Shown piece by piece: positions 4,153 through 6,559 of a stretch of 58,361 nucleotides of DNA. Source of the stretch: Candidatus Poseidoniaceae archaeon (lineage in GTDB: Archaea; Thermoplasmatota; Poseidoniia; Poseidoniales; Poseidoniaceae); contig JAPKCS010000010.1 in assembly GCA_028822845.1 (NCBI GenBank), positions 1 to 58,361 on the forward strand. Direction: 5' to 3'. The position numbers were made by a program, and so were the translations under genes. The first letter of the stretch is position 1. Every line of letters starts with the position of its first letter. A model generated the notes under the pieces. It did no database searches. It was given only the letters and a program-made list of their open reading frames with translations, and had not been told where the DNA came from.

Positions 4153-4809
4153 ATGTTCTCTTGGGTGAACACCGAAGGTACCGCAAAAAGAATGGCCATC
4201 ATTGGCGTTGGTGGCATCGGCACCAATTTGATTGAACTGTTGATTCCAGCGCTTCAACGCTTGGGGCTTGATGCCCAACTTACCCTGATGGACGGCGATG
4301 TCGTCGAAGCTGGAAACTTAGGTCACCAAAGGTACACTAAAGATGATTTAGGGCTCAAAAAAGTTGAGGCTCTGGCATCGCGATGGGACGAACAAGGCAG
4401 CGGTGTTGAGGTGGTTGCTTGCGCGGAGAACCTTCGCCAATCGCACCAACTCGAAGGCTACGATTTGCTCGTCGTTTGTGTCGATCGGCCCGAGCCGCGC
4501 CGCCTTGTCCATGCGATAGGAACGCCATGGCTTGATTTGCGATGCGGTGGTGATGGCTACGTGATGCTCAGTTCGGAATCATCAGAACATTTGGTCAACC
4601 ACATGACGCCCGACCACGAACCGATGAGTTGCCAGCACCCTGGAGCACTCGAGGATGGAAACCTCGAATTTGGATTTGCTGTTGCTGCGGCCTATGGAGC
4701 ACAGTGGGTGGTCCAACACCTGAGGGGGAATCAGCCTCCGGTTCAAGCGATGGGGTCACTCACCTATGGTGCTTTCAATTTCCCTGCGGTTCCAGAGGTG
4801 AGCGCATGA
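4153..4809 (+). CDS. E1-like ThiF/MoeB-fold adenylyltransferase
   Basis: 218 residues, one ThiF-type domain. The nucleotide loop IIGVGGIGTNLIE is at residues 16-28. LMDGDVVEAGNLGHQRY (45-61) matches the D-x-VE-xxNLxRQ region, then GLKKVEAL supplies the conserved Lys. D111 in VCVDRPEPRR is the expected metal Asp. Candidate nucleophilic or transfer cysteines are C131 (LRCGGDG) and C160 (SCQHPG). The family adenylates the C-terminal glycine of ubiquitin-like or sulfur-carrier proteins. Differences from MoeB/ThiF: the Arg of NLxRQ is displaced by GHQR, the two zinc-binding CxxC pairs are missing, and the protein is short. Its stop overlaps the start of the JAMM gene (ATGA), so translation is probably coupled. 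A start at 4192 is possible. Confidence 0.88.
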   Translation: MFSWVNTEGTAKRMAIIGVGGIGTNLIELLIPALQRLGLDAQLTLMDGDVVEAGNLGHQRYTKDDLGLKKVEALASRWDEQGSGVEVVACAENLRQSHQLEGYDLLVVCVDRPEPRRLVHAIGTPWLDLRCGGDGYVMLSSESSEHLVNHMTPDHEPMSCQHPGALEDGNLEFGFAVAAAYGAQWVVQHLRGNQPPVQAMGSLTYGAFNFPAVPEVSA

Positions 4810-5363
4810 TTTTCATTCCAAATTTGGACCAACTCGAAGTGTCGAGCAATGATTGGGAGCGTCTGTGTGCTTTGGCAACGGCAAGGGAGGTCACCAATGA
4901 GGCGTTGATTGGGGTGCAATCGAAAGCCGCTCTTCTCGAACGGTGGGATGTGGTTTACACCCTGTCGCTCTTGGCTGGACTTGAAACATCGGTGTTGATC
5001 GATGCGGAAGACACTGTGTCCATTGATTGGGGCAGTCCTGGACGCGTCGCTCTTGCGCCACCTGTTGGTTGCGTTGCACCGTTCAAAGTGTGGACGCACA
5101 CTCACCCGGGTTTTGACGCATACTGGAGCGGCACCGACACCAGAAGTTTGGCCATTGCTGGAACCATTGTCTCAAGAGCGTTGGTTCTTGGCTCTCCTGG
5201 CATCAAGCAAGCCGTGAATGAATCCTTCAACACAATCGAACAAACATCCCTGCGAATCATGCCGAGCGGTCCGCTTCATCTTTGGACGGATGAACCAATT
5301 TTGCCTTGGGAGGCTTACTATGAACGCCTTCATTCAACAACAATGCAGGAGATGAATGTATGA
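4806..5363 (+). CDS. JAMM/MPN+ metalloprotease (deubiquitinase-like)
   Basis: 185 residues. The JAMM zinc motif is perfect: H98-T-H100, seven residues, S108, two residues, D111 (HTHPGFDAYWSGTD). MPN+ enzymes use this site to hydrolyse isopeptide or peptide bonds next to a ubiquitin-like C-terminus; prokaryotic JAB proteins process ubiquitin-like or sulfur-carrier proteins, and others act in Cap3-like phage-defence operons. The upstream catalytic glutamate cannot be placed with certainty. There is no signal peptide or membrane segment, so it acts in the cytoplasm. It overlaps the E1-like gene by four bases at its 5' end and the next small gene by four bases at its 3' end, which strongly suggests a functional unit. 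Target and modifier are unknown. Confidence 0.88.
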   Translation: MIFIPNLDQLEVSSNDWERLCALATAREVTNEALIGVQSKAALLERWDVVYTLSLLAGLETSVLIDAEDTVSIDWGSPGRVALAPPVGCVAPFKVWTHTHPGFDAYWSGTDTRSLAIAGTIVSRALVLGSPGIKQAVNESFNTIEQTSLRIMPSGPLHLWTDEPILPWEAYYERLHSTTMQEMNV

Positions 5364-5599
5364 CTGGAGTTCGTCATCCCAAGGACGATGAAGAATGCCG
5401 GAAGGCACGCCTTGCTCTTGCCTTAGGCATGGGGACAAGTTTGGTCGACGTCGTGACTGAATTCCTTGGCCATGAGCCTGATGAAGCGTTCCTTGAAGCC
5501 GTGAGGAACCGCATTGAGTTTGCACAGGAAACGCAAGAAACGATTGACATCAAGGTCTTAGTCGAACGGATGGCTGACCTTCAAAATGAAAACGCTTAG
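5360..5599 (+). CDS. Small helical protein of the E1-JAMM operon
   Basis: 79 residues, unrecognised. Composition and periodicity suggest three or four alpha helices (DEECRKARLALALGMG, LVDVVTEFLG, DEAFLEAVRNRIEF, VLVERMADLQ). There is no beta-grasp pattern and no C-terminal Gly-Gly, so it does not look like the ubiquitin-like substrate of the neighbouring E1-like protein, unless the modifier is atypical. Its ATG overlaps the JAMM stop (ATGA) and its stop is followed after nine bases by the start of the next gene. Cotranslation with the JAMM protein suggests an accessory subunit or adaptor (inference). Confidence 0.7.
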   Translation: MTGVRHPKDDEECRKARLALALGMGTSLVDVVTEFLGHEPDEAFLEAVRNRIEFAQETQETIDIKVLVERMADLQNENA

Positions 5600-5608
5600 G
5601 TGATTCAA

Positions 5609-6559
5609 ATGATCATAGGACCCGATGACTGTTGCGGGAATAATTGCGTCGTATGCCATGCATGGTCGCCTAAAAAATCTCAACGGCAAAAACTTGTTCG
5701 CGGCTGGAACAGTCACTTGCCAGAACCTGAATCCTTTGATCCAACACCAGGTTTGGAAGCTCAGAGACTCGATTATCAAACCCTGTTGCACGGTTTGCAA
5801 GATGAACCAAAACCATCATTCGCACTCGTTGAGATCCCAAATACCGCTGCAGAATTGATGATGCATTGCATGGGCTACACCGATGAAAATCTGGTCCATC
5901 AACTGGAAGCAAGGGCGCTGAAGGAAGGTGCGCACCTCTCTCAAACTGAGTGGCATGCCCTTGCACCATACATGATTTTGGATGAGGAAGGGGTGTTTTC
6001 CTACGAGCAACGCGGTGTGTTACAAGGAAAAATCGATTTCAGAACGACGAAGCTGTTTGTGGAAATATGGCATGGTCATCATGGCGTTTTGAACGCTTTA
6101 AGGTTGAGGCGACAGGCTCTTATTATGCATTCAACCCTCGAATATATACTTCCCAAAAATGAACGCCGTGCCCTCAAACTTTTGCATCAAACCGTTGCTG
6201 AACAACCTGACCGAATCCTTGTCAACGGAGACGGAGGGCTTGTCGTCAAAGGCGATTCCGGACTGACCTGGTTGATTCAACCAAACGGCAGTTCCAGAGG
6301 GGTGCCAAAGGTTCAATGTCAAGAGACAAGCCAAGTCTTTTGCATTCAACCGGATTTTTGTCAGGCGGAACTCCCAAGCGCTGATTACACCGCAGTCTAC
6401 GTTCTTGCAATGATCAATGACATCGCCACTTCCTTCCGAGTCTCAACGCTTTCAAACGGGTTGAAAAAAGAACTCAAGAAAGCCAATTCAATTGTTGGTG
6501 TAGGTGGGTTTCCGACCCTCGATCAGGGCGGAGAGCCCTTCCAGCGAATCTTGAGTTGA
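5609..6559 (+). CDS. Unknown protein with N-terminal CCx3CxxC motif
   Basis: 316 residues from the ATG at 5609, which is preceded by a GGTGAT Shine-Dalgarno; a GTG at 5600 is also in frame. The N-terminus has C8, C9, C13 and C16 (DDCCGNNCVVCHAW), the spacing seen in the short Oxidored-like motif (CCxxxCxxCxW) of OXLD1-type proteins, and probably binds a metal or cluster. The rest is unrecognised: a helical middle part rich in Leu/His (about 75-200) and a mainly beta part (about 205-270) with further Cys at VQCQ, FCIQ and FCQ. It has no membrane segment. It is the last gene of the plus-strand operon. Its final 24 codons overlap, tail to tail, the end of the fatty-acid oxidation gene on the other strand. 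Confidence 0.75.
   Translation: MIIGPDDCCGNNCVVCHAWSPKKSQRQKLVRGWNSHLPEPESFDPTPGLEAQRLDYQTLLHGLQDEPKPSFALVEIPNTAAELMMHCMGYTDENLVHQLEARALKEGAHLSQTEWHALAPYMILDEEGVFSYEQRGVLQGKIDFRTTKLFVEIWHGHHGVLNALRLRRQALIMHSTLEYILPKNERRALKLLHQTVAEQPDRILVNGDGGLVVKGDSGLTWLIQPNGSSRGVPKVQCQETSQVFCIQPDFCQAELPSADYTAVYVLAMINDIATSFRVSTLSNGLKKELKKANSIVGVGGFPTLDQGGEPFQRILS

Follow-up and report, generated by a model that had tools for sequence, protein, structure and literature searches.

An E1-JAMM operon and its relatives

We analysed a stretch of 58,361 nucleotides from Candidatus Poseidoniaceae archaeon (assembly GCA_028822845.1, contig JAPKCS010000010.1, forward strand), hereafter the window. Its assembly, in which it is contig C53, spans 1.92 Mb and is 92% complete. 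The window carries a tight operon of four consecutive plus-strand genes for an E1-like adenylyltransferase, a JAMM metalloprotease and two further proteins, here called P3 and P4. We consider it likely that this operon provides one half of a ubiquitin-like (Ubl) conjugation system, namely activation and deconjugation, while the modifier would come from a separate poly-Ubl gene. The features of the locus are:

4153..4809, plus strand: E1-like adenylyltransferase, 218 aa; Pfam ThiF at E 4.2e-18
4324-4326, plus strand: codon of E1 His58, at the position of the usual Arg in NLxRQ
4630-4632, plus strand: codon of E1 Cys160
4806..5363, plus strand: JAMM metalloprotease, 185 aa; motif at 5097-5138
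5360..5599, plus strand: P3, third operon gene, 79 aa, helical by reading
5600..6559, plus strand: P4, 319 aa from GTG 5600 or 316 aa from ATG 5609; N-terminal Cys cluster, C-terminal conserved-Cys (CI) domain
6341-6343, plus strand: codon of P4 Cys245 (ATG numbering), in the C-terminal CI domain

The E1 gene ends and the JAMM gene starts within ATGA at 4806-4809, where the codons were checked, and the JAMM gene ends and P3 starts within ATGA at 5360-5363. P4 begins at GTG 5600 or at ATG 5609, the latter nine bases past the P3 stop, and its N-terminal start reads MIIGPDDCCGNNCVVC. The JAMM protein carries H98-T-H100-x7-S108-x2-D111. For P3, no family scored above cut-off in the Pfam or other model scans, the one Pfam match (E 0.24) lying below it, and P4 gave no Pfam match. 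An earlier note on this DNA had described a four-gene row with ATGA overlaps and a nine-base gap, a JAMM motif of perfect spacing and two genes of no known family, and coordinates, frames, overlaps, motif and family scans all agree with that description.

Conservation was assessed on 80 loci kept of 111 E1 loci from a scan of named genomes; the 80 include some near-copies, and five places occur under two labels (L163/L274, L144/L276, L141/L281, L166/L282 and L091/L272). The closest relative in that scan is a Poseidoniales bin whose E1 is 92% identical (L087). JAMM adjoins E1 in 78 of the 80 loci, and P3 is present too in 70; among the ten loci lacking P3, some run into a contig end. ATGA-type overlaps join E1 to JAMM in 69 of 78 loci and JAMM to P3 in 69 of 70, and the E1 and JAMM genes are fused in L055, L277 and L278. 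A P4-type gene lies within the stretch in only 19 of the 80 loci, a Ubl gene in 10 and all five parts in 3. Among 59 related genomes, 25 carry the E1 at a cut of E<1e-30.

Thirteen aligned E1 proteins all keep GxGGIG, D47, D49, N55, Q59, K70, D111, C131 and C160, and the JAMM motif H98xH100x7S108xxD111 is likewise invariant in 13 aligned rows. The Pfam Prok-JAB match on JAMM lies below cut-off (E 0.031), and the best solved relatives of its profile are a proteasome-N11-like protein and AMSH-like proteases (E 0.029-0.044). In an E1 tree of 45 rows, with eight virus rows and PRTRC_L268 left out and the housekeeping rows trimmed to 270 aa, 24 system E1s form one clade (support 99/93), six housekeeping E1s another (100/100) and seven PRTRC E1s a third (97/96). 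The six housekeeping proteins, 360-406 aa long, are the weaker E1 matches that were checked among the 59 genomes. An archaeal E1-JAMM modification operon, as the earlier note had called it, is thus supported by a conserved order and by an E1 clade of its own; neither contrary outcome that it had named, loss of the order in relatives or grouping of the E1 with housekeeping MoeB/ThiF proteins, was found.

The probable ubiquitin-like modifier and its tandem precursor

That no Ubl partner is recognisable, another statement of the earlier note, stands within the window and fails genome-wide, where a tandem Ubl gene lies on another contig; in relatives, Ubl is found in the operon or fused to E1. The small Ubl of related loci ends in ...PGLVGG and is either free or fused to E1, to a P4-type domain or to an AAA+ ATPase, and five stretches of another locus type hold, beside P4-type genes and E1, a protein of 73-102 aa whose LPGL(I/V)GG terminus may or may not be followed by a tail. 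The fusions comprise Ubl-Ubl-E1 (L163, L275 and L144), Ubl-CI domain (L141, and L152 with two Ubls) and Ubl ahead of an AAA+ ATPase (L161:4296-5969). AAA-like genes, assigned by reading, also occur in the L051 and L054 stretches, which together with the L161 fusion is a hint of Ubl-dependent unfolding. P3 was considered as the missing Ubl and ruled out, since it has no Gly tail and coexists with a true Ubl in L152, L161 and L163.

A profile of 18 Ubl rows (A4), not including the window's genome, gave 212 matches among solved structures at E<=10, and 59 of the best 60 were ubiquitin; poly-ubiquitin scored 7.6e-21 by summed repeats and single ubiquitin 0.023-0.12. With a 40-row profile that included the Ubl of the window's own genome, 223 PDB matches were obtained, the best 60 all ubiquitin or ubiquitin fusions by name, with single ubiquitin at E 0.018-0.095. 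A control PRTRC-C profile matched no ubiquitin among the solved structures. Pfam gave no match worth naming for Ubl, and Prok_Ub was unmatched at E<=5 in the 18 Ubls. In the window's own genome, A4 detected two adjoining Ubl units at G000:C34:1656-2060 (E 4.8e-19 and 6.1e-22), on a contig other than that of the operon. They form a di-Ubl of 145 aa with two head-to-tail units, a tail MAQAER and GGAG upstream of the ATG. Its AlphaFold2 model, built from 20 rows, has a mean predicted local distance difference test score (pLDDT) of 74 and a predicted template modelling score of 0.42, displays the order b-b-a-b-b-b twice, and gave three Foldseek matches in the PDB at E<=0.001, namely two chains of OASL with its tandem Ubl domain, and linear di-ubiquitin. 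From profile and model, the Ubl is a predicted beta-grasp modifier with a C-terminal Gly.

In relatives, a tandem Ubl gene holds between two and four units; in a second family most of the Ubls seen are single. In L188-L191, L198 and L200-L202, each Ubl repeat terminates in AG, with Gln as the final residue. A single-contig chromosome, CM001443.1 (L091; G073, 2,064,136 bases), carries E1-JAMM-P3-P4 near 505.7-508.2 kb and a di-Ubl near 111.2-111.6 kb; binning error is therefore not the cause of the split loci.

Across 389 Thermoplasmatota genomes, partly incomplete, Ubl (E<=1e-3) was found in 65, E1 (E<=1e-20) in 64 and CI (E<=1e-6) in 70, all three in 58 and any of them in 72; all 65 Ubl-carrying genomes belong to the window's order. 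The pairs E1 and Ubl (60 genomes), E1 and CI (62) and Ubl and CI (63) each reach a Fisher p below 1e-58, a value that is not independent evidence, since the genomes are related, many are incomplete and linked genes pair trivially. G320 and G379, the two genomes with E1 but no CI match, hold divergent CI-like domains, in the L281 Ubl fusion (E 0.0021) and in L166, which is L282 of G379 (E 0.022, filters off). A better test than linked loci is the first family, because its Ubl and E1 loci lie mostly on separate contigs: among its 35 genomes, a count that includes G016 on a contig-edge fragment and omits a weak G058 match, 18 have both, two E1 only, two Ubl only and 13 neither.

Related sets also occur on virus contigs. 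L061:7371-11073 and L062:7312-11079 hold Ubl, a weak CI protein (E 0.0033 and 0.015), E1 and JAMM in one stretch; both came from an E1 scan of IMG/VR, their Ubl then being found by profile, and a scan of IMG/VR with the Ubl profile yielded no confirmed relative. L061 additionally encodes a Cpn60-family chaperonin and an RFC-like (clamp-loader-like) ATPase, and we infer that both contigs are viruses of these archaea (magroviruses). Genes for T7-like single-subunit RNA polymerases lie beside Ubl operons in L047:6582-10430 (minus strand), L049:249-4115 (plus strand), L152:2-3736 and L164:2463-6305, three of them matching Pfam PF00940 and that of L047 being assigned by similarity; these loci are perhaps a class of mobile element or provirus. 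In a phage collection, no match was obtained for the di-Ubl or the P4-type protein, while E1 matched 29 records, among the matches listed crAss-like or uncultured phages. The ThiF-like E1 of crAss-like Bacteroides phages (e.g. crAss001) is mostly annotated 'thiamine biosynthesis protein', and E1-like genes were seen on further virus contigs of the E1 scan.

P4 and the conserved-Cys domain

The CI domain usually occurs in two or three copies per genome. In the window's genome two more CI proteins, unlinked to the operon, have 796 aa (L234:4817-7207) and 256 aa (L235:4559-5329). Across 41 aligned CI rows, C245, D259 and D271 are invariant, and no second Cys or His is. In the AlphaFold2 model of P4 (41 rows, pLDDT 74), a helix at 183-198 is followed by five strands at 203-244, Cys245 and helices at 257-291, a modelled element order which, with the Cys before a helix, resembles that of a UBC domain. 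In a close relative, P4 is spread over two overlapping frames (L031:9198-10159), a broken gene or a sequencing indel.

Among Foldseek matches of the model in the PDB, 8tyz_C, which belongs to a bacterial E1-E2-Ubl complex, ranked 11 (E 2.3, probability 0.07). In a viral fold library, the best two matches were unnamed viral proteins, 441 and 452 aa long (E 1.7e-3 and 1.4e-2), with weak SWIM-type matches at ranks 3, 25 and 37 (E 0.18, 1.2 and 1.7). No E2 family was matched in the Pfam scan of the 41 CI rows, and none of the rows matched Pfam SWIM at E<=0.1. The best CI-UBC alignment by hhalign, insignificant in itself, places the CI Cys on the active-site Cys. The earlier note had looked to a beta-grasp or E2 fold in either of the two unfamiliar proteins; the Ubl is neither of these, but P4 bears a conserved-Cys domain that tracks the Ubl, with no E2 fold confirmed. 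Two identities of P4 were found to be unsupported, that of a PRTRC-B protein (hhalign 0.09-0.16%, no His in the invariant or 90% columns of the 41 rows) and that of a proven E2, for which no fold or profile match was significant. That P4 is an E2-like carrier is therefore a proposal.

Proposed system, alternatives and known counterparts

We propose a model in which JAMM would cut the tandem Ubl precursor, of two units and the tail MAQAER in this organism, after each C-terminal Gly. E1 would then adenylate the freed Gly and take the Ubl onto Cys160, from where it would be handed on to P4, or to its 796- and 256-aa paralogues, at their invariant Cys; these proteins would act as E2-like carriers, their other domains perhaps choosing the targets. 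Targets would be modified and JAMM would remove the tag, while P3 could serve as an adaptor of E1 and JAMM. Judged from sequence comparison, the parts probably make up a complete, conserved, split-locus Ubl conjugation system with an archaeal poly-Ubl precursor. The sequences themselves show the genes and their order, the Ubl identity, the tandem precursor in this genome, the domain fusions in relatives and the co-occurrence. That Ubl, E1 and JAMM belong together we regard as very likely; conjugation with P4-type proteins as carriers is evenly balanced.

Several observations weigh against this model. Position 58 of E1 is His in all 13 aligned rows, where canonical E1s carry the Arg of the NLxRQ motif, and this could weaken adenylation. 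With the Ubl profiles, ubiquitin as a single domain reaches no better than E 0.018-0.12, and a single-sequence phmmer search with the own-genome di-Ubl finds no ubiquitin; the link between Ubl and ubiquitin therefore depends on the profile. Some of the lineages, among them a part of the genus, have Ubl repeats that terminate in AG and not GG. Among the 389 partly incomplete assemblies, four E1 genomes have no Ubl match and five Ubl genomes no E1, and the pairing within the first family is deduced from co-occurrence and from relatives in which the genes are linked, because Ubl and E1 lie there mostly on different contigs. P4 has no Foldseek match in the PDB at E<=0.001, and CI compared by hhalign reaches 0.09-0.16% against PRTRC-B and 0.44% against one UBC, a comparison of little power in which PRTRC-B against UBC itself gives 1.9-4.1%.

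In other archaeal Ubl systems, E1 is reported to conjugate without an E2. Ubl, E1 and JAMM could form a real set in which the E1 likewise needs no E2 and P4-type proteins have another role, their CI domain binding Ubl or targets as a reader or adaptor and perhaps descending from a SWIM-like zinc domain. We regard this as a real, if lesser, possibility: it would explain why no E2 fold or profile match is obtained, it agrees with the weak SWIM-type matches in the viral library (best E 0.18), and several CI paralogues with differing other parts per genome would suit it. However, one Cys is invariant in 41 of 41 rows whereas no second Cys or His is, Pfam SWIM is unmatched, the Cys precedes a helix in a UBC-like order in the model, and Ubl-CI fusions exist. 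Use of the E1 for sulfur transfer (thiamine, molybdopterin or tRNA thiolation), with the Ubl as sulfur carrier, is very improbable in our view. The single best NCBIfam match of E1 is indeed ThiF PRK08644 (E 1.1e-14), closely followed by PRTRC ThiF (E 3.2e-14), but all NCBIfam matches fall below the curated cut-offs, the housekeeping E1s form a clade apart from the system E1s, the system E1 occurs in just 64 of 389 genomes, and a JAMM partner, a tailed tandem precursor and Ubl fusions suit a sulfur carrier poorly.

An anti-virus defence module akin to cyclic-oligonucleotide-based antiphage signalling systems (CBASS), Bil or Bub, or the viruses' own version of the set, would fit the complete versions beside T7-like polymerase genes (L047/L049, L152, L164) and on L061 and L062, as well as the PADLOC E1-E2 models, which match about 100 residues of E1 (best 5.8e-11). 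We hold it to be unlikely, since the genes flanking the operon match those of the window in 17 of 20 same-genus E1 carrier genomes, and these neighbours comprise GDP-mannose dehydratase, glycosyltransferases, 3-hydroxyacyl-CoA dehydrogenase/enoyl-CoA hydratase and regulators. The only PADLOC matches among the ten window neighbours were helix-turn-helix stretches (E 2e-4 to 1e-8) in three regulator-like proteins, the neighbours in other genomes not having been scanned for defence genes. CBASS Cap2/Cap3 shares a related E1 domain (E 0.0034; 4e-6 by profile) and a JAMM partner; in contrast, the window's E1 is a separate protein of 218 aa without E2 fusion, the modifier gene is separate, and no cyclase was found among the four operon genes and ten neighbours at the thresholds used.

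With regard to other known systems, excerpts of Iyer et al. 2006 (PMC1779556) describe a bacterial type 6d with Ubl, JAB with an N-terminal domain, E1, an E2-like protein and a helical protein, as well as a type 6e with poly-Ubl, which is described again in part of PMC11354881; bacterial Bil and Bub operons are named in an excerpt of PMC13373217. We read type 6d and the PRTRC plasmid system as the same. As far as the excerpts go, an E1-like protein, JAMM, a small Ubl, a conserved-Cys protein and an alpha-helical protein are shared with it, and JAMM agrees in part (profile 74% across 35 columns when five PRTRC-A rows are used, 52% in a set including L265, a PRTRC-B-looking row). The E1 profile is homologous to that of PRTRC ThiF (99.6% over 182 columns, C160 aligned on the PRTRC Cys), yet these E1s form a separate clade and the window's E1 stays far under the PRTRC_ThiF cut-off (52.9 against 144.75 bits). 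Further differences are the Ubl (hhalign 0.72% against PRTRC-C), the conserved His after the Cys in PRTRC-B, which the CI domain lacks in 41 rows, and a Poseidoniales set that is chromosomal, split over loci and equipped with a tandem Ubl; ParB was not searched for. PF14454 matched none of the 59 related genomes, the control genomes giving no match either. On our best reading, the system is related in some of its parts to bacterial type 6d/PRTRC without belonging to it. Type 6e shares one to three Ubl repeats, whereas its E1, in the excerpts, is mostly fused to JAB and its UBC-like domain lacks the Cys; here the genes are mostly separate and the Cys is invariant.

Compared with eukaryotic polyubiquitin and the Caldiarchaeum ubiquitin operon (parts of PMC6043591 and PMC5654768), the best profile match of the Ubl is ubiquitin, a precursor needs processing and JAMM is nearest to N11-like and AMSH solved structures. 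The Poseidoniales E1, however, is short and ThiF-like, and UQ_con (PF00179) was found in none of the 59 relatives; the 14 control genomes gave no match, and the model does match the L284 record (E 5.4e-55). An excerpt of PMC4327156 lists one marine group II (MGII) genome with UCH and RINGs, the present system not being among the entries of that excerpt. The terms ubiquitin, ThiF and JAB were not found in PMC10160649 (magroviruses) or PMC6461757 (Poseidoniales), and among the matches listed in a search of the openly licensed literature there was no report of an archaeal poly-Ubl or of the present system in Poseidoniales. The system also differs from archaeal SAMP/Urm1-UbaA, since the housekeeping E1s, whose UbaA/MoeB-like naming is ours, form another clade. 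SAMP systems combine an archaeal Ubl, E1 and JAMM, and SAMPs are single units.

Tandem polyubiquitin genes are typical of eukaryotes. They are also described for some bacterial operons in the excerpts of PMC1779556 and PMC11354881. We entertain, as a rather doubtful extension, that Poseidoniales own a chromosomal polyubiquitin-like network with one E1, one JAMM, a poly-Ubl and several carriers built on a new, non-UBC conserved-Cys domain, matched by sets on viruses and mobile elements. The combination of a Ubl precursor, E1, JAMM and a conserved-Cys family, at split loci, is found in an archaeal order that is abundant in the surface ocean, with versions on virus contigs. This provides defined parts for asking whether tagging from a poly-Ubl precursor runs in archaea too, possibly by means of a new class of carrier.

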